From assembly GCA_002254845.1 (NCBI GenBank), contig NKPT01000022.1, positions 1 through 50,355 on the forward strand: 50,355 nt of DNA, given 5' to 3'. The first letter of the stretch is position 1. Every line of letters begins with the position of its first letter. The translations under genes were made by a program, and so were the position numbers. Shown piece by piece: positions 1-7,473 of this stretch. This stretch comes from Chloracidobacterium sp. CP2_5A (GTDB lineage Bacteria; Acidobacteriota; Blastocatellia; Chloracidobacteriales; Chloracidobacteriaceae). The notes beneath the pieces were generated by a model. The model was not told the DNA's origin. It worked only from the letters and a program-made list of their open reading frames with translations, and made no database searches.

Positions 1-491
1 GATTGCGACGCGCGCACGGCGCTTTCCGTCGCGGCGCGCAGGAAGTCGCTCGCGCCGGCATTTGACCAAGGCGATCTTCCTAGCGCCTTGCCGCTACCGC
101 TTGAGTCCCAGGGAACGCTCTCGAAGAAAGCCGTTGCCGTCATTTCATCGGCCGGCGCGGTCGCCACCGCGGCGGGCGCGCCCGCCGCGGCCGGAATCGC
201 GGGGGATGGGCGCGGCGCTGGCAGCGGTACGAGCTCGCCCGGTGTCCGACTCGCGGACGTTAGGCGCGTCGCCGCCGGGCGAGCGATGACGGCGCGGATG
301 GGCGCGCCGCCGCGCTTAGCCCACGGAACCTGTTCGCCAAAGAAGGCTTCCGCCGTGTCTTCCAGACTCAGAGCCGCGCGCGCGCGCTGCACCGCGAGGC
401 TAAGCTTTTCGCGGCAGCGGGCAATCCGCGCTAGCAAAGCTTCCTGTTCGTCAAGGAGTTGTTGGGGGAGAGAAAAGTTGATGCTTGCCAT
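1..491 (-). CDS. Protein with two FFxxVPW motifs (partial, runs off left edge)
   Basis: Open frame read leftward from an ATG at 491 and still open at base 1, giving 163 residues and no C-terminus. The N-terminus (about residues 1-45) is polar and helix-like (SLPQQLLDEQEALLARI). Two copies of a short motif follow: FFGEQVPW at residues 50-57 and FFESVPW at 122-128. An Ala/Pro-rich linker separates them (about 85-115). Such spacing of short aromatic-Pro-Trp motifs in disordered sequence looks like repeated docking motifs, but that is inference. It starts 48 bases after the stop of the V4R gene on the same strand, so it is probably the last visible gene of the redox cluster. I do not recognise the family. 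The opposite-strand frame at 88-498 is rejected as a shadow. Confidence 0.6.
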   Translation of the reverse strand, partial: MASINFSLPQQLLDEQEALLARIARCREKLSLAVQRARAALSLEDTAEAFFGEQVPWAKRGGAPIRAVIARPAATRLTSASRTPGELVPLPAPRPSPAIPAAAGAPAAVATAPADEMTATAFFESVPWDSSGSGKALGRSPWSNAGASDFLRAATESAVRASQ

Positions 492-539
492 GAGATGATA
501 ATCCCTCAGGATGACGAATAGGCTTACGCGAGGTCGGCG

Positions 540-1202
540 TCAGTCAACCAGCTTTTCCATGATTTCTTTAGCCGTCGCGCCCTCGCGCCGCCAGAATTCC
601 GCCGCGTTGACTTTCTTCTGCGAGCCAACAATGAACTTGCAGCAGTCGTTGCCCATGGAGTAGCACTGAACCTCGATGCCGCCCCGCTCCTCGCGGTCGA
701 AGACGCTGAACACGCCGGCGAACATCCCGGCGTACATGTAACAAACCGGCTTGCCGACCTGCTCCATGGCCTTGGCTACGGCGGAATTCTTAATGGTGAC
801 AAAGACCATGCCCTGCTTTTCAAAGCTGAAGTCAATGGCCCATGCGCCCCAGCCCTCAGTGGTCAGCGGCCACCACCATGACTCCAGCACAAACTTGCGA
901 TTCATTTGCCAGATATCAAGCTTGCCGCCGCCGAACTCATGGCGCATTTTCTCGGCGAATCGCTTCATATCGCTGACGCCCCAGGCATAGCCTGACTTAT
1001 ACATTACGAGACTGGAGGCATCGCCAACCTCCTCATTCAGTCCGGTGTGGAGGCTGACGATGAAATCCTCCGAGGCGTAAACGCCGCGTTGGCCGTCCCG
1101 CAGCCGAATGGTGCGCGTGCGCGGGTCGCGGGAAAGAAAGTCTTCAGGGACAAAATAGTTGTGGTAGTTCTTGATGCCGCCATCCGCTACGTTGATTGCC
1201 AT
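540..1202 (-). CDS. V4R (4-vinyl reductase) domain protein
   Basis: About 220 residues. The C-terminal half fits the V4R small-molecule-binding fold, with the family's closing pattern CYSMGNDCCKFIVG near residues 180-193. V4R occurs in BchJ, in XylR/DmpR-type sensors and in TRAPP Bet3. In phototrophs it is linked to tetrapyrrole or photosystem biogenesis. Despite the name, reductase activity is not established. I chose ATG 1202 because GAGGAG lies about 10 bases upstream; a TTG at 1220 would add six residues overlapping that ribosome site. It lies 166 bases downstream of the ferredoxin gene on the same strand. Pairing with a [2Fe-2S] ferredoxin recalls Slr0144/Slr0147 with Slr0148 in the Synechocystis PAP operon. 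The family call is fairly sure and the role is inference. Confidence 0.75.
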   Translation of the reverse strand: MAINVADGGIKNYHNYFVPEDFLSRDPRTRTIRLRDGQRGVYASEDFIVSLHTGLNEEVGDASSLVMYKSGYAWGVSDMKRFAEKMRHEFGGGKLDIWQMNRKFVLESWWWPLTTEGWGAWAIDFSFEKQGMVFVTIKNSAVAKAMEQVGKPVCYMYAGMFAGVFSVFDREERGGIEVQCYSMGNDCCKFIVGSQKKVNAAEFWRREGATAKEIMEKLVD

Positions 1203-1368
1203 GAAACAAGAGCTCCTCAAGTGGAGGTTAGTATTTTGGTAAGGGCGCTGCGAGGCCCGTCACTGCTGGGGGGACTGTATCGTTACCAAGCTGAGCGACT
1301 ACGCGTCACCCGGCAGTCCAGCCGGCTCAATTGCCTTGCTCAACGGGGCGAAGTCTCTCCAGCAAGCC

Positions 1369-1842
1369 TTAAGAAGCTGAGGCCACTAACTTTGTCATAT
1401 CGAAGTCCTCGCCTTCAAGCTCTAAAATTCTTGACTTCGTGATGATTTTCCCGCGCTCGATCAAAATGCGCCCGTCCCGCGGGTGCATGATTGGTATCTC
1501 GGCGCGTCGTCCGACAAGCGCGCGCAGGTCTTCAATGTCCTGCAGATACATCCCTTCGGGAAGCTCGACGACCACGCCATCGCCAATGATGCGGGCCTGG
1601 CAGGAGAGTCGCGAGCGAGCCGTTGCCCCGGTGATGGTGCCGAGCGTGCGAATCTCGCGCTCGGTGCGCGGCGTCAGCGCCTGCTCGCCCTTGATAACGA
1701 AGACGTGACAGGTCGCGCACAGCCCCATGCCGCCGCAGGCCATGGCGACTTCGCACTGCGAAGCCAGCAGCGTGTCAAGCACCTTGGTGTCTGTCTTGAC
1801 CGAAATCGTCTTGTTGATCGGCTGTAGCGTTAGCGTTTTCAT
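1369..1842 (-). CDS. [2Fe-2S] ferredoxin with C-terminal extension
   Basis: 157 residues. The N-terminal beta-grasp domain carries the cluster ligands as CGGMGLCATC (Cys-X5-Cys-X2-Cys) and a fourth Cys about 38 residues later in RSRLSCQAR. This is the plant/adrenodoxin-like arrangement. A C-terminal part of about 65 residues beyond the usual fold (from PEGMYLQDIEDL onward, with GRRAEIPIMHP) resembles the extended ferredoxins of cyanobacteria. Start ATG 1842 has GGAG eight bases upstream and lies only four bases past the stop of the FNR-like gene, so the two are almost certainly co-translated. That argues they exchange electrons. A longer frame to 1968 exists but runs inside the FNR-like gene and was rejected. 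Family is sure; partner is inferred from spacing. Confidence 0.88.
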   Translation of the reverse strand: MKTLTLQPINKTISVKTDTKVLDTLLASQCEVAMACGGMGLCATCHVFVIKGEQALTPRTEREIRTLGTITGATARSRLSCQARIIGDGVVVELPEGMYLQDIEDLRALVGRRAEIPIMHPRDGRILIERGKIITKSRILELEGEDFDMTKLVASAS

Positions 1843-1846
1843 CGGG

Positions 1847-2542
1847 CTAGCTCCATCGCTCAACTGTAATGTTTTGTTTCGGAATTTCGGCGGACTGAAA
1901 GACTTGCTGGTAAAACTTAATCTCTGGGTACTCGCCAGCCGCGTAAAATTTTGTGTTGGGATTTTCAAGATAGAGACTTCTGAGCATCACCGGGCTAACC
2001 CGCCCAAGCCCGCCCGTCCAGCCTGGCGGACGGGTCGGCTGGTTGAGAATCAGCACCCTCGTGAGCGGGCTGTTTTGCTCAAAGTGCTTGAACTCATTAT
2101 CGTAGAGGATCTGACTTGCATCCGTCACTTCATGAAAGAGCGTAAGCCGGCGTTGCGGCTGGCGGAGCAGTATATAGTAAAAAAAACTGCGCGCTGCCGG
2201 GATGCAGTAGTCCGCGCCAATGAAACAGGCCGGGTCGTCCACGGCGGTGTCGAGTTTGAGCTGCCCCATCGGCTCGCCAATCGAGTAAGTCTGATCCGGT
2301 TGCGCTTGATCATAGAGCCTCGCGCCGAAATTGCCGGTTCGCTTGACCGTGACCTGGAAGTATTTTTGGTCGTGCGGAGATGAGCTGATGGTTAGTGGCG
2401 CTTGCCGCTCAGCGTCGAGGTGAAAGATGACGAACTGCCCCGGCGTAAAAGCGAAGGGGCGGTCCCCGAAATCAAAGACGAGGGAGCGTACGTCTGATGT
2501 TTCCTGAATGATCCGACGCAGGGTGTAGGAGCGCGTTTCCAT
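1847..2542 (-). CDS. Ferredoxin reductase (FNR)-like flavoprotein, degenerate NAD site
   Basis: 231 residues with the two-domain FNR plan. The N-terminal barrel has PGQFVIF and the FAD-binding stretch APLTISSSP (about residues 48-56). The expected nucleotide loop, normally like GGxGITP, reads FIGADYCIPAARSF. The C-terminal CGxPxM-like motif reads AAGEYPEIKFY. The flavin half is therefore conserved while the pyridine-nucleotide half is altered, so the enzyme may use another donor, bind NAD(P)H weakly, or be structural. It is followed four bases later by the ferredoxin gene and preceded by a coiled-coil gene on the same strand. A separate electron-transfer role from the thioredoxin-reductase-fold flavoprotein at 32001-32975 is likely. 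Fold sure, activity uncertain. Confidence 0.75.
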   Translation of the reverse strand: METRSYTLRRIIQETSDVRSLVFDFGDRPFAFTPGQFVIFHLDAERQAPLTISSSPHDQKYFQVTVKRTGNFGARLYDQAQPDQTYSIGEPMGQLKLDTAVDDPACFIGADYCIPAARSFFYYILLRQPQRRLTLFHEVTDASQILYDNEFKHFEQNSPLTRVLILNQPTRPPGWTGGLGRVSPVMLRSLYLENPNTKFYAAGEYPEIKFYQQVFQSAEIPKQNITVERWS

Positions 2543-2682
2543 GAGCAGGTCAGAACCAGATAAAAAAGTAGCCCGCCGCGAATTAGTCCGCGAATTAAAA
2601 AGGTAGCTCGCCGCGACTTGGGCTTTCGGGAAGGCTTTCTCGTAGAGGAAGGCTGATGGCTTGGCTTGTGGCTTGGCTTGGG

Positions 2683-3441
2683 CTACTGTCGCCCGCGCAG
2701 CGACGCCAACTCCGTTTCAAGCTTTTTGATATGGGCTGCGGTAAGATCGTTTGTCTGCGCGACTTCAGCCACAATCGTATCCAATTCCCTTGATAGTCGC
2801 TCGCTTTCATTGACGGCTTCCCCGTAGACGCGCGAGGTTGTTTTTTGATACTGGAGCGCTTGCCTCTCTAGCGTCTCTAGCTCCAACTCGGCTTCGCGCA
2901 GGGTGTTGAACAGGTCAAATGTCGCTGCGCTGGTCCGCCTGATTCGCTCATCCACTTGCCGCCGATGCTCTAAAAAGGTTAATTCGATGCCGTCGAGGTC
3001 CGACTGCGCGTCTTGCATGTCCGACGCCGCCTCCTGGAGGCTTTGTTGTAGGCTGAGAATATAACTTTCCAGTTGTTGGACATGGTCGGCGACTCGCGCT
3101 TGGTGGGTCAATAGCGCCTGCCGAATATCTTCCAGCTCGCGCGAGGTCTCGTTGACGGCCGAGAAGAAGTTCCGCGCCGCCATGTCGTATCGCTCCAGCT
3201 CATAGTTGCGCTCCCGTAAGAAGCCGAGCGCCTCATCTCGCTCTTGACGCAGCCGGCGGATGGTTGTTTCGGCTTCCTCAAGGCGGTGCAGTTGGTGCTG
3301 AAGCGTTGGGAAGCGCGCGAGCGCGCGGTTGATGACGCTCGCGCACCACCTGTACATGAGACGGGTCAGAAGCGGAAGTTGTTGAATTGAAAGGCGCTCC
3401 GCCGAGGATGGCGGCGGAACGGAAATATCGCTAAGCGGCAT
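2683..3441 (-). CDS. Coiled-coil protein
   Basis: 252 residues, no recognised enzyme domain. After a short Pro/Ser-rich N-terminus there is a hydrophobic/aromatic stretch (LPLLTRLMYRWCASVI, about 23-38). Nearly the whole remainder has the charged heptad pattern of a long coiled coil (about residues 48-250; for example LRQERDEALGFLRERNYELE). It is the first gene of the minus-strand redox cluster, 140 bases upstream of the FNR-like gene. It may act as a scaffold or membrane-associated filament for the redox proteins, but this is only suggested by position. Start ATG 3441 has no strong ribosome site. A possible promoter lies about 110 bases upstream. Confidence 0.6.
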   Translation of the reverse strand: MPLSDISVPPPSSAERLSIQQLPLLTRLMYRWCASVINRALARFPTLQHQLHRLEEAETTIRRLRQERDEALGFLRERNYELERYDMAARNFFSAVNETSRELEDIRQALLTHQARVADHVQQLESYILSLQQSLQEAASDMQDAQSDLDGIELTFLEHRRQVDERIRRTSAATFDLFNTLREAELELETLERQALQYQKTTSRVYGEAVNESERLSRELDTIVAEVAQTNDLTAAHIKKLETELASLRGRQ

Positions 3442-3754: not shown

Positions 3755-4864
3755 TTAGTCTGGCGGCAGAGCGTCGCTTTCGACTTCAAGCAGCAGCCCG
3801 GCGGCCTTTAGCCCGTTGACGAGAAACGTGATGGCGGCGGTCCGGTCGGATGCGCGCGCGAGGATTTCCCGGATTGGGAGACGTCCGTCAAGGAGGCGCA
3901 GCAGGTTGACGGTCTCTTGCGGAAGGTCGTCGGCATTGAGACGCTGACGCAGCTCCGGCTCGACAGCGTAAGTTTTTGACTCTTCAACGCCTCCGCGCAG
4001 AAGCCGATGGGCGAGTCGGAGAACCGACTCGGCGGTTCGGACGTCGGCATCCGTCAGTCGCTCGCCGCCGATCGATGAGTCCGCGCCATCCGGGGCGTCG
4101 TCGGCATTGGTTTCCAGCAAGCGTCCGAGGTCTGGCGCTGGCTCAGCCGCCGCCTGATTCGGCAGCTTGAGCGCGGCGGGGCGGCGCTTGGCTTCCGCTT
4201 CGTCACGCCGGCGAAAAGCCTCCATAAGCAGGCCCATCAGCCGGTCGTGGAGCGTGCGCGACGGGGGCGTTGCGGGCGGCGCGCTCATCTGGAGCTGGAC
4301 GCCTTCCCAGAGGAGAATATCGAAGGCGGCGGCTTCGCCTTCCGCATGGCCTGTCTCCGCCTGCAGGAGTTCGCCGTCGCTGAAGTAAAGATAGCCGACG
4401 CGCCCGGCGGCGGTGACTCGGAGGACGCAGCTTTTGCGCTCGACCTCCAGCAATTGCAGGAATGACGCCAGCGTCAAGCCCTGAATGACGCCCTGTTGGC
4501 GGGCGTTAAGCTCATTGCGAATGGCGTTGTAGAGCGTATTGACGCTAAGCGGCTTGCGGATCACCGGAATGGCTCGGACCTGACTCAAGCGCGTCTCGAC
4601 ATCGCTGACCGCCATCGCGGTGGTGACGATAATCGGGAGTTGCGCCGACTCGCTGAGCAGGCGGGCGATGAGCTCGAAGCCATCCATGACGGGCATTTGA
4701 AGGTCGGTGACCACCACATCCGCCGGCTGGCGCGCTAAGATGTCAAGCGCCTCGCGTCCATGCTCAGCCGTGAGGACTTCAAGCTCCTCCTGATAGCGAC
4801 TAAGCCACCTGGCCACAATCTGGGCGATAGCCGTGTCGTCTTCAACTAGTAAAACCCGCCTCAT
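3755..4864 (-). CDS. Response regulator with REC and PATAN (DUF4388) domains
   Basis: 369 residues. The REC domain (about 1-118) has the acidic pair E8/D9/D10, phospho-acceptor D54 in VTDLQMPVMDG, the conserved Thr in IIVTTAM and the Lys in VIRKPL. Residues about 127-200 match the PATAN/DUF4388 fold (IQGLTLASFLQLLEVERKSCVLRV, split by YLYFSDGELLQAETG). The C-terminal part is charged, with no DNA-binding domain. In cyanobacteria PATAN response regulators act by protein contact on type IV pilus motors in phototaxis, so a motility or surface role is plausible here. It is 62 bases downstream of the PIN gene. A second PATAN protein lies at 23314-25596, and a PilS-like kinase at 11935. Confidence 0.85.
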   Translation of the reverse strand: MRRVLLVEDDTAIAQIVARWLSRYQEELEVLTAEHGREALDILARQPADVVVTDLQMPVMDGFELIARLLSESAQLPIIVTTAMAVSDVETRLSQVRAIPVIRKPLSVNTLYNAIRNELNARQQGVIQGLTLASFLQLLEVERKSCVLRVTAAGRVGYLYFSDGELLQAETGHAEGEAAAFDILLWEGVQLQMSAPPATPPSRTLHDRLMGLLMEAFRRRDEAEAKRRPAALKLPNQAAAEPAPDLGRLLETNADDAPDGADSSIGGERLTDADVRTAESVLRLAHRLLRGGVEESKTYAVEPELRQRLNADDLPQETVNLLRLLDGRLPIREILARASDRTAAITFLVNGLKAAGLLLEVESDALPPD

Positions 4865-4926: not shown

Positions 4927-5391
4927 CTAGACCCCGGTTGTGACGAGAAACTCCGGCGTGACGATAATAGGGCAGGGGAAGCCGCTCGCGAGATTAAAGC
5001 GCCGCACCCGCGCCTGCCGATGAATGCTAGCAATATGCCCGAAGTTCCAAGTTGCAAAAAGGTCCATGTTGTGAATAGACGCCAGGGCGACGTGGAAGGC
5101 GTCCGCCAGGAAACGCCGCTGGAAAATGCCGCCGCCAACATAGCTAGCGGCTAGCATGGTCGCTTCATCGCGCAGCGGGAGCTGCGGGAGCGGTCGAATG
5201 AGGTTGAGGTAAGCCGATCGGTGGGGCTCAGGCAGTCGCTCCAGCTCATGCCTAACTAGCGGCGAGACAAACGCGCGATACTCCCAAAGGTCGTGTTCCC
5301 ACCACCGCATGGTGAGGTCGCGGCGAAAGGGGTCATCGTTGTCGAGGTAGGCCCCGACGACCGAAGTTTCGAGATAGAGCGTGAGTTTCAC
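4927..5391 (-). CDS. PIN domain protein, possible toxin without visible antitoxin
   Basis: 154 residues from a GTG at 5391, chosen because AAGGA lies about 10 bases upstream and the PIN fold begins at once (KLTLYLETSVVGAYLDND). A longer frame reaches 5688 but would overlap the start of prkA on the other strand. Motifs: acidic ETS in place of the usual DTS, a central FLADAFHVALAS with its Asp, and ATWNFGHI near the C-terminus, as in type II PIN toxins and related single PIN proteins. PIN domains are Mg-dependent RNases. No small antitoxin-like gene is adjacent: the divergent neighbour is prkA and the downstream gene is the PATAN regulator. It may be an orphan toxin or a housekeeping PIN RNase. 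Confidence 0.7.
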   Translation of the reverse strand: MKLTLYLETSVVGAYLDNDDPFRRDLTMRWWEHDLWEYRAFVSPLVRHELERLPEPHRSAYLNLIRPLPQLPLRDEATMLAASYVGGGIFQRRFLADAFHVALASIHNMDLFATWNFGHIASIHRQARVRRFNLASGFPCPIIVTPEFLVTTGV

Positions 5392-5424
5392 CGGAACCGC
5401 GTCCTTGCAAACGCCTGCGAACAA

Positions 5425-5453
5425 TTGACGATAGCGGCGAATGCGCCCATACT
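5425..5453 (+). promoter_or_regulatory. Candidate sigma-70 promoter for prkA
   Basis: TTGACG (5425-5430), a 17-base spacer and CATACT (5448-5453). The -35 matches five of six and the -10 four of six consensus bases. It lies about 90 bases upstream of the prkA ATG, in the space shared with the start of the divergent PIN gene. Confidence 0.45.
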
Positions 5454-5541
5454 TTTCCCAGCAGGATGCGCGTCCCCGACGCGCGTCCTTTGCGCATCTC
5501 GCCCGCGCCTGAATTTTTCGTCCGTGACGGGAGTCGCTGCC

Positions 5542-7473
5542 ATGTCTGACACTGAAATCTCCAAGCCCGATATTACCCAACTGCTGGAAGCGCATCGGCG
5601 TGACCGCGCTTCGCTTCACTGGGAAGGGACGTTCCGCGAGTACTTCGAGATGGCGGTCAAGCAGCCCAAGCTGACGCAACTGGCGCATGCCCGCATTTGC
5701 GACATGATTCTCGCCGCCGGCACGACGGTTATCAACGAAGGGACGCGCGACGAGATCACGCGCTACAAATTTTTCAGCGATGAGCTGTTTGGCATTGATG
5801 AGGCCATCGAGCAGCTGGTTGAGTATTTTAAGTCAGCTGCCCAGCGGCTGGAAGTGCGCAAGCGCATCTTGCTGCTGATGGGACCGGTGGGTGGCGGGAA
5901 GTCCACCATTGTGACGCTCCTCAAGCGCGGGCTGGAGAAATGGACGCGCTCCGAGGCCGGCGCGGTGTACGCCATCAAGGGAGATCCCATGCATGGCGAC
6001 CCCATGCACTTGATTCCCCAGGATCTGCGCCCAGAAATTCAAAAGCACTACGGCATCTATATCGAGGGCGAGCTTAGCCCGCAGGCCCGCTACGACCTGG
6101 AGCACACCTATAAGGGGCGGCATGAGGATGTGATCGTCGAGCGGATTGTTTTTTCTGAGAAAGACCGGGTTGGCATTGGCACGTTCGCGCCCAGCGATCC
6201 GAAGTCGCAGGATGTTTCTGAGCTGACCGGCTCGATAGACCTTTCGACAATTGGCGAGGTCGGCGTGGAAAGCGATCCGCGGGCCTATCGCTTTGACGGC
6301 GAGCTCAACGTGGCCAACCGCGGCATGATGGAGTTTATCGAGATTCTCAAGTGCGACGAGAAATTCCTTTACTCGCTGCTGACGCTGTCACAGGAGCAAG
6401 CTATCAAAACTGGTCGCTACGCGATGATCTATGCCGACGAGGTTATTGTTTCGCACACCAACGAAAACGAATACCAGTCCTTTGTCGGCAACAAGAAGAA
6501 TGAGGCCCTTCAGGACCGGATCATCATGATCAAGGTTCCCTATAACCTGAAGGTTTCGGAAGAAGAGCGGATTTACAAAAAGCTTCTTTCGCAAAGCAGC
6601 CTGCAGGGGGTTCATATCGCGCCCTACACTCTGCGGGTCGCCGCCATGTTCGCCGTGCTGACCCGGCTTGAAGCCCCCAAGCGAGCCAATGTGGATTTGG
6701 TCAAGAAAATGAAGCTCTACGACGGCGAGGATGTGGATGGTTTCAAGAGCAAGGATGTCAAGGAGCTAAAGGCTGAAACCACGCGCGAGGGCATGTTCGG
6801 CATTTCGCCCCGCTATATCATCAATCGGCTGTCGAACGCGCTGGTGCAGGAATCGAAGAAATACATTACGCCAATTGACGCGCTGCGCGCTATTCGGGAT
6901 GGCTTTGATCAACACACCGGGATCACGGCCGAAGAGCGCGAGCGGTATCTCAACTTGATTACCCTGGTGCGCAAGGAATACGACGAAATTGCCAAGACGG
7001 AAGTGCAGCGAGCCTTCGTCTATTCATTTGAGGAAATGGCCAAAAGCATTTGCGATAATTATCTTGATAATGTGGAAGCCTACTGCAATAAGGAGAAAAT
7101 AAAAGACGCTATTACTGAAGAGGAAATGGAGCCAGATGAAAGATTGATGCGCTCAATTGAGGAGCAGATTGGCATTTCGGAGAATGCCAAGAATATGTTC
7201 CGGCAGGAAATCTTGATCCGCATCTCAACTTATGCTCGCAAGGGTAAGCGATTCGAGTACAATTCGCATGAGCGGTTGAAAGAAGCCATTGAGAAGAAGA
7301 TCTTCGCCGATCTGAAAGATATCGTTAAGATTACGACTTCAGCTAAGTCGCCGGACGCGGATCAGTTGCGGCGAATCAACGAAGTGATTGACCGGCTAGT
7401 GAAAAAGCATGGCTACACGTCTGAAAGCGCCAACGAATTGCTCAACTACGTGGGAAGCTTGCTGTCGCGGTGA
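5542..7473 (+). CDS. prkA: PrkA family serine protein kinase
   Basis: 643 residues from ATG 5542, close to the usual 630-645 for the family (Bacillus PrkA, E. coli YeaG). The AAA-like N-terminal part has a Walker A GPVGGGKST at about residues 114-122. It is followed by the PrkA-typical region (VANRGMMEFIEILKCDEKF) and a helical C-terminal domain (LRRINEVIDRLVKKHGYTS). PrkA proteins are linked to stress and stationary-phase or sporulation signalling; whether they act as kinase or ATPase/protease has been debated. The usual companions yeaH (VWA) and spoVR do not follow here. Instead aroA begins 20 bases after the stop. An upstream in-frame extension to 5293 overlaps the PIN gene and is unlikely. 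Confidence 0.93.
   Translation: MSDTEISKPDITQLLEAHRRDRASLHWEGTFREYFEMAVKQPKLTQLAHARICDMILAAGTTVINEGTRDEITRYKFFSDELFGIDEAIEQLVEYFKSAAQRLEVRKRILLLMGPVGGGKSTIVTLLKRGLEKWTRSEAGAVYAIKGDPMHGDPMHLIPQDLRPEIQKHYGIYIEGELSPQARYDLEHTYKGRHEDVIVERIVFSEKDRVGIGTFAPSDPKSQDVSELTGSIDLSTIGEVGVESDPRAYRFDGELNVANRGMMEFIEILKCDEKFLYSLLTLSQEQAIKTGRYAMIYADEVIVSHTNENEYQSFVGNKKNEALQDRIIMIKVPYNLKVSEEERIYKKLLSQSSLQGVHIAPYTLRVAAMFAVLTRLEAPKRANVDLVKKMKLYDGEDVDGFKSKDVKELKAETTREGMFGISPRYIINRLSNALVQESKKYITPIDALRAIRDGFDQHTGITAEERERYLNLITLVRKEYDEIAKTEVQRAFVYSFEEMAKSICDNYLDNVEAYCNKEKIKDAITEEEMEPDERLMRSIEEQIGISENAKNMFRQEILIRISTYARKGKRFEYNSHERLKEAIEKKIFADLKDIVKITTSAKSPDADQLRRINEVIDRLVKKHGYTSESANELLNYVGSLLSR

Follow-up and report, generated by a model that had tools for sequence, protein, structure and literature searches.

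A Chloracidobacterium form of the pre-1 bilin/slr0144-type gene cluster, with a predicted reductase gene of its own and a repeated-motif protein

Two described gene clusters stand closest to the genes considered here. The first is the cyanobacterial pap operon (slr0144-slr0152 in Synechocystis), of which tetratricopeptide-repeat (TPR) and kinase genes are reported to be members (PMC4853703, PMC4284462, PMC11863333); in a review of ferredoxins the cyanobacterial cluster includes a TPR protein and sometimes a kinase (PMC4284462). Interactions among Slr0144-Slr0149 have been reported, with an Slr0149 pull-down (PMC9880817), and the operon has been linked both to photosystem I and to photosystem II, with no agreed mechanism (PMC4853703). 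The second is the pre-1 cluster described by Rockwell, Martin and Lagarias in 2023, who counted Chloracidobacterium among its carriers and tied the cluster to slr0144-slr0149 (PMC10151467). That paper reports that pre-PcyA enzymes reduce biliverdin and that BBAGs bind bilins, allows for dispersed genes in pre-1 clusters, and records only small amounts of product for the pre-1 enzyme that was assayed. Here we analyze contig NKPT01000022.1 of Chloracidobacterium sp. CP2_5A (the window, 50,355 nucleotides), whose first 3,441 positions carry five minus-strand genes that form part of a lineage-specific variant of this known cluster, with two or three parts that go beyond the published text we consulted.

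An initial annotation, made from the letters of the window, had read the five genes as a relative of the PAP operon outside cyanobacteria, acting in tetrapyrrole or reaction-centre biogenesis. The kinship is right and was already in print (PMC10151467); the reaction-centre role is not supported in the form proposed. Gene order, homology, co-occurrence and a repeated motif with its recurrence are what we observe. From the anatomy and adjacency of the genes we infer the direction of electron flow, a bilin substrate, docking by the motif and control by a kinase, and we give an even chance to the resulting model, in which the Chloracidobacterium form of the pre-1 bilin/slr0144-type cluster encodes a tethered complex for NAD(P)H-to-ferredoxin-to-bilin reduction under kinase control. 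The FNR-like flavoprotein would take electrons from NAD(P)H and pass them to a dedicated [2Fe-2S] protein, which would feed the reduction of a linear tetrapyrrole (bilin) by a ferredoxin-dependent bilin reductase encoded at a second locus. Two V4R proteins may hold or hand over the pigment and a phycobiliprotein-like globin may receive it, while the FFxxhxW protein would be a flexible multivalent tether whose repeated motifs dock the folded partners into one complex. A Ser/Thr kinase encoded downstream of V4R2 would set the activity, as proposed for SpkG and the homologous Synechocystis ferredoxin. The features in the window are as follows.

2683..3441, minus strand: coiled-coil protein, 252 amino acids, first gene of the run (from gene order; its Pfam matches are all under the cut-offs).
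1847..2542, minus strand: FNR-like flavoprotein, 231 amino acids, cluster-specific (PF00175, orthologue search and AlphaFold2 model).
1843..1846, minus strand: four-base gap between the flavoprotein and Fe-S genes (4-5 bases in 7/7 Chloracidobacterium genomes).
1369..1842, minus strand: [2Fe-2S] protein, 157 amino acids, of the Fed5/Slr0148 type (PF00111 and a conserved C-terminal extension).
540..1202, minus strand: V4R1 protein, 220 amino acids (PF02830, matches in relatives and the V4R tree).
3..491, minus strand: FFxxhxW (here FFxxVPW) protein, 163 amino acids visible, with its 3' end lost at the contig end (motif count).
321..344, minus strand: first motif copy, FFGEQVPW, in the FFxxhxW gene.
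108..128, minus strand: second motif copy, FFESVPW, in the FFxxhxW gene.
3755..4864, minus strand: response regulator with a C-terminal DUF4388, the upstream neighbour (Pfam on the G004 orthologue and gene order).

The five genes are present as the initial annotation had placed them, and the four-base gap that it noted after the flavoprotein is real. Pfam scores exceed the cut-offs for V4R (PF02830, 58.8 bits), Fer2 (PF00111, 36 bits) and NAD_binding_1 (PF00175, 26.5 bits); a Pfam search with the FFxxVPW protein returned no family. Two things speak against chance: the gene order, constant as described below, and the ratio of nonsynonymous to synonymous substitution rates (dN/dS), which in three genome pairs is 0.01-0.24 for the cluster genes in usable comparisons, with 0.08-0.18 for the FFxxVPW gene and 0.08-0.12 for the coiled-coil gene. 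For the pair L038/L041, the BBAG value (1.39) was dropped as an artefact of a stop inside a stretch extended by tblastn, FNR and V4R1 values are absent because dS was saturated, and the response regulator value rests on 68 residues.

The run belongs to a longer operon, which in relatives reads coiled coil, FNR-like protein, Fe-S protein, V4R1, FFxxVPW protein, globin, V4R2 and Ser/Thr kinase; upstream of the coiled coil lie the DUF4388 response regulator gene and, in divergent orientation, a PrkA-like gene. The same order is found in all seven Chloracidobacterium genomes searched, the source genome included. In the source assembly (3.41 Mb in 385 contigs) this contig, C11, ends at window base 1, so that the FFxxVPW gene is missing its 3' end and the operon is interrupted; the remaining half is on contig C30 (globin 11-613, V4R2 619-1254, kinase 1340-3067), and the C11 and C30 ends map ∼130 bases apart on G002. 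In G004 the globin matches PF00502 (the Phycobilisome family) with 77.5 bits and the kinase matches PF00069 with 161 bits. Conservation of the neighbourhood, which the initial annotation had proposed as a check, is borne out for the five genes in 7/7 Chloracidobacterium genomes and for four of the five in G008, a BchX-positive genome from another genus of the same family. The 8-kb contig of G008 keeps the FNR-to-kinase order but begins within the FNR gene, too late to include the place of the coiled-coil gene. G012, from another family of the same order, keeps the Fe-S-to-kinase order; the coiled-coil gene is not on its stretch, and its FNR orthologue lies on a separate contig, where it overlaps a bilin reductase gene. 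A kinase gene follows V4R2 in 15/15 non-cyanobacterial clusters, at 1.4 kb in L097 and at no more than 170 bases in the other 14, and a simple DLKPxN-loop pattern matches every one of these kinases except that of L096.

The cyanobacterial side of the comparison consists of two plasmids of Acaryochloris marina MBIC10699, pREC2 and pREC3. The plasmid clusters share 43% identity with the window in V4R1 and 49-52% in the Fe-S protein, where the alignments span 90-99% of the query. The genes run V4R1, a small protein, a globin-like protein, V4R2, Fe-S protein, globin and, on one plasmid, a coiled-coil/TPR protein. The order V4R1, FFxxhxW protein, globin and V4R2 is common to Chloracidobacterium and both plasmids. 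In a maximum-likelihood tree of 42 V4R proteins, V4R1 from all 17 clusters groups together (support 98/97), as does V4R2 (85/93), a split that agrees with the two V4R clades of the pre-1 paper (PMC10151467); the program flagged long branches, including the one that joins the cyanobacterial V4R2 proteins, and the deep joins are unsure. These identities, groupings and the common order uphold the proposed kinship to the PAP operon. The view that the dedicated reductase is foreign to the cyanobacterial version is likewise supported, in that the two Acaryochloris stretches gave no FNR match; they gave no kinase match either. One correction applies: the FFxxVPW protein has a cyanobacterial counterpart. 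Kinship of the coiled-coil protein to the coiled-coil/TPR protein of Acaryochloris was rejected, since a comparison of the two gave nothing at E up to 1. Separately, pREC2 has, past its cluster and beside a transposase gene, a further stretch that is 58% like the Fe-S protein of Acaryochloris (L116:10844-11107).

For the FFxxhxW protein we took, in each of the 17 clusters, the reading frame between V4R1 and globin with the most copies of FF-x(2,3)-[AVILMFYHC]-x-W. Two to four copies are present in 16 of the clusters, both Acaryochloris ones included. Among 612 control frames of at least 120 residues from the same stretches (overlaps included), only one contains the motif, once, and no frame reaches two copies; shuffles of each positive protein reached its count in 0-9 of 5000 cases; since the motif was picked after viewing these proteins and 7 of the 17 come from one genus, the numbers describe and do not predict. 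The protein changes fast. Outside the motifs, Pro, Ala, Ser, Thr, Glu, Gln, Gly and Lys together make up 51-72% of the protein, and neither of the two motif proteins searched has a Pfam match. We infer that the protein would be a flexible tether with repeated docking sites. Somewhat short of even, we think, is the chance that it represents a new family of multivalent tethers, with repeated FF-x(2,3)-hydrophobic-x-W motifs and little further sequence conservation from Acidobacteriota and Verrucomicrobia to cyanobacteria, that organizes the V4R proteins, the bilin globin, the reductase-ferredoxin pair and the kinase and that belonged to an ancestral machine behind the pap operon. In the cyanobacterial literature slr0145 is named by one machine-learning classification paper among the matches listed for slr0145-slr0149/slr0151. 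The pREC3 frame (L115:5624-5962) is open but unannotated, in a gene table that is incomplete by its own description. A candidate partner carrying the same FFxxhPW motif elsewhere in the genome was sought with a DNA pattern in eight genomes and rejected: of 22 matches, each genome has one in its motif gene, eight in all, and the other 14 lie elsewhere; of the latter, two places are common to G001 and G004 only, and the pattern read backwards gives seven matches.

The FNR-like flavoprotein is predicted to be a divergent FAD-NAD(P) reductase. An AlphaFold2 model built from nine orthologues (pLDDT 89.7) resembles cytochrome b5 reductase, flavohaemoglobin, Fre and the sulfhydrogenase gamma chain in fold; for Fre (1qfj) and the gamma chain (9nf0) the query TM score is 0.80, at 18-20% identity. 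The nine-sequence alignment has QAxLTxSSSP at the flavin site and GxxYxxxAAR in place of GGxGxxP, and a C-terminal ERWS is common to all nine. In the [2Fe-2S] protein the four cysteines of CX5CX2C...C are present in 21/21 aligned copies, and a C-terminal extension of ∼60 residues is conserved and aligned with the Acaryochloris ferredoxin; the model of this protein (mean pLDDT 74) resolves the extension poorly and was not used. The best NCBIfam match of the ferredoxin is the ISC ferredoxin, which would suit a general Fe-S or ferredoxin supply module, an ISC-like ferredoxin with its reductase that merely lies near pigment genes. That explanation is very improbable: the match (59.8 bits) is well below the cut-off of 132.1, the extension is common to the cluster-type copies, and the same partners recur in Acidobacteriota, Verrucomicrobia and a cyanobacterium.

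The bilin parts are divided between two loci. The globin carries the CxRD bilin-attachment motif in 7/7 Chloracidobacterium genomes (CVRD in the source genome, on C30), in G012, in L096-L100 and L102, and in one globin per Acaryochloris plasmid. Among 98 relatives, a set that includes the source genome, bilin reductase (PF05996) is detected in eight, and Pfam missed the orthologues of G001 and G004 (68-69% identity). The source genome reductase scores 51 bits and lies on contig C379 (L082:8995-10518), and in 7/7 Chloracidobacterium genomes (L082-L088) this second locus combines the bilin reductase, a third V4R gene and a ParA-like ATPase. In the V4R tree the third V4R groups with the V4R that adjoins the G008 reductase.

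The distribution of the cluster bears on a different explanation, namely that it serves bacteriochlorophyll or reaction-centre biogenesis. There, the V4R proteins would carry (bacterio)chlorophyll precursors, which FNR and ferredoxin would reduce, or the pair would repair the centre, and the Chloracidobacterium reductase, with no haem oxygenase, would act on a chlorophyll-derived tetrapyrrole. V4R1 at ≥76% identity, the FNR orthologue at ≥40% identity and the PF00502 globin each occur in nine of the 98 relatives, and these are the identical nine genomes each time (G000-G006, G008 and G012). Weaker V4R matches raise the first count to 13, and weak matches to other reductases raise the second to 37, the next best being a 62-residue fragment in G008 (E 4e-15) and the remainder at E 2e-12 or weaker. 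Because its BchX is above the NCBIfam cut-off, the source organism is very likely a chlorophototroph. BchX exceeds that cut-off in eight of the relatives, which are the cluster-bearing nine minus G012; the cluster is thus present in 8/8 BchX-positive relatives and in 1/90 others. Across a phylum sample of 396 genomes, the four genomes with V4R1 (E up to 1e-30) are also the four with BchX over the cut-off, and all are Chloracidobacterium. PF01126 haem oxygenase is found in 20 of the 98 relatives and in none of G000-G013 (other kinds of haem oxygenase were not searched), and Chloracidobacterium is also reported to lack haem oxygenase (PMC10151467), a gene that typifies pre-1 clusters but need not be present in them. 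Together with the photosystem links of the cyanobacterial operon (PMC4853703), these results argue for biogenesis. However, the eight genomes represent two genera, so that one or two events may account for the co-occurrence, and G012 has the cluster but gave neither a BchX nor a BchL signal, in an incomplete assembly (83%). Because few genera are involved, the link to phototrophy is no more than suggestive. BchX-like matches below the cut-off were set aside: the one in G101 reads as NifH, beside NifD, and those of 180-197 bits in the phylum sample (G142, G346, G367, G389 and G410) look by eye like NifH (L167-L169, L171) or like longer proteins with a NifH-like domain (L165, L166, L170).

Searching genome contigs with the alignment of the Fe-S protein extends the cluster beyond Acidobacteriota. 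Of the 24 loci obtained, 12 (L091-L102) match across 148 residues or more, and the other 12, which match the ferredoxin in part only, were left out; L091 and L092 were taken as G002 and G003, and L093 and L094 as G008 and G012, each counted once. Six further stretches have the Fe-S protein, V4R1 (63-72% identical), globin, V4R2 and kinase. Five are titled Opitutales, Opitutaceae or Verrucomicrobia (L096, L097, L099, L100 and L102), and the sixth (L098) is from the unplaced bacterium BWSM_10. A bilin reductase is on the same stretch in 5/5 verrucomicrobial clusters and was not found on the BWSM_10 stretch. Just after it, L096 (17295-17753, ∼11 bases away) and L099 (17215-17682, ∼28 bases) carry a second Fe-S copy. 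Of the ten genomes behind L093-L102, BchX is over the cut-off in that of L093 only, and hence in none of the five verrucomicrobial genomes nor BWSM_10, whose completeness is unstated; the one strong match beneath the cut-off is that of G101, read as NifH. Haem oxygenase is present in six (those of L096, L097 and L099-L102), and in three of these six its contig equals the cluster contig in size. By these genes, organisms that give no indication of bacteriochlorophyll have the core cluster. Its partners there are the same ones, not the unrelated partners in non-phototrophs that the initial annotation had named as the finding that would count against it. Verrucomicrobial core clusters with a bilin reductase and no BchX over the cut-off do not bear out a reaction-centre role as first stated, and we consider the biogenesis explanation unlikely.

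The adjacencies of the FNR and Fe-S genes, of the reductase and the second Fe-S copy, and of the reductase and FNR genes in G012 suggest as the simplest chain one that leads from NAD(P)H through the FNR-like protein and the Fe-S protein to the bilin reductase. The kinase raises another explanation, a bilin- or redox-sensing signalling complex in which the globin and V4R proteins would sense, the Fe-S and FNR-like proteins would set the redox state, and the kinase, perhaps with the response regulator, would be the output; pigment reduction would then merely make the chromophore of the sensor. Several features are consistent with sensing: the constant kinase downstream of V4R2; the response regulator, upstream of the run in 7/7 Chloracidobacterium genomes and also in G012; the weak resemblance of V4R1 to MsvR, a regulator (39.5 bits, with the cut-off at 220); and the report that BBAGs do not have the high fluorescence of phycobiliproteins and that their functions are not known (PMC10151467). 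However, a reductase and a ferredoxin dedicated to the cluster would suit chemistry more than sensing, and the Chloracidobacterium and G012 response regulators are alike over the receiver domain alone, with no known output target. We regard sensing as doubtful, though far from negligible. Because the kinase is found in 15/15 non-cyanobacterial clusters and phosphorylation of Fd5 (Slr0148) is reported to be lost in an spkG mutant (PMC11863333), the comparison suggests an early origin for kinase control of the ferredoxin.

Several observations weigh against a tethered bilin-reduction complex. GGxGxxP, the nucleotide loop, and CGP are canonical motifs of the FNR superfamily; both are absent from the alignment of nine FNR-like orthologues, so that oxidation of NAD(P)H by this protein is not assured. 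The bilin reductase is encoded outside the window operon, on another contig beside the third V4R gene, and in three of the five verrucomicrobial clusters the reductase has no Fe-S neighbour. On two stretches, L095 (a 3.4-kb contig of Eremiobacterota) and L101 (Opitutales), the full-length Fe-S gene stands without any other cluster gene. No PF01126 haem oxygenase that could supply biliverdin is found in G000-G013. The G008 globin (L042:2768-3355), from a phototrophic relative, has AVRD, with Ala for the Cys of CxRD, and the L099 FFxxhxW protein has degraded forms of the motif and no fitting copy. Finally, the kinase activity of SpkG itself is reported to be unverified (PMC11863333).

Around the operon, the response regulator gene is a putative operon member only. 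It adjoins the PrkA-like serine kinase gene in 7/7 Chloracidobacterium genomes; in the window this gene (5293-7473, divergent from the operon) scores 338.8 bits against a cut-off of 576. Just upstream of the Fe-S gene, G012 (L044:2926-3276) and the Eremiobacterota contig (L095:262-621) encode proteins of 116-119 amino acids with no Pfam match that are weakly alike (E 3e-5). After the kinase, G012 (L044:8771-9364) and BWSM_10 (L098:14798-15418) encode proteins of ∼200 amino acids with no Pfam match (E 2e-10 between them).

Chloracidobacterium provides the cluster with a reductase gene of its own, a kinase in constant position and a motif protein open to direct tests, and it separates the proposed complex from oxygenic photosynthesis. 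The proposed order of electron flow and the binding motif are concrete, and they provide new handles on the role of such clusters. A bilin reductase with no known haem oxygenase in an organism that makes bacteriochlorophyll raises the question of its substrate.

Compared with known systems, the FNR-like protein shares its fold and sequence similarity with the Fre, NqrF and sulfhydrogenase-gamma reductases, but differs from them in having no GGxGxxP or CGP and in its own conserved signature and ERWS. BchJ, the 4-vinyl reductase, has the V4R domain in common with V4R1, which scores 16 bits against the BchJ cut-off of 74.3 and is not BchJ by that model. With the slr0144-slr0152 operon, as read in pREC2 of Acaryochloris, the locus shares V4R1, FFxxhxW protein, globin and V4R2 in that order and a Fed5-type ferredoxin; the Synechocystis operon is described as having a plant-type ferredoxin gene (PMC4284462). 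In Acaryochloris the Fe-S gene follows V4R2, whereas in Chloracidobacterium it precedes V4R1, and the Acaryochloris stretches have a second globin-like gene and no FNR gene. A term search of the main text of the pre-1 paper (PMC10151467) gave no FNR, ferredoxin reductase, slr0145 or Verrucomicrobi-, and kinase in the references only, although its figures and supplement may hold more; the paper on Chloracidobacterium isolates (PMC8245765) gave no bilin, V4R, heme oxygenase, phytochrome, PcyA or phycobili-. Beyond that main text, our analysis identifies the FFxxhxW protein as a part common to these clusters, finds that the FNR-like protein co-occurs exactly with the cluster and that the kinase is constant, and extends the cluster to Verrucomicrobia. 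The pre-1 cluster as published has, like the Chloracidobacterium operon, an Fe-S protein beside two V4R proteins of two clades and a CxRD globin (PMC10151467); in Chloracidobacterium the reductase lies elsewhere, with a third V4R, and FNR-like and coiled-coil genes are added.

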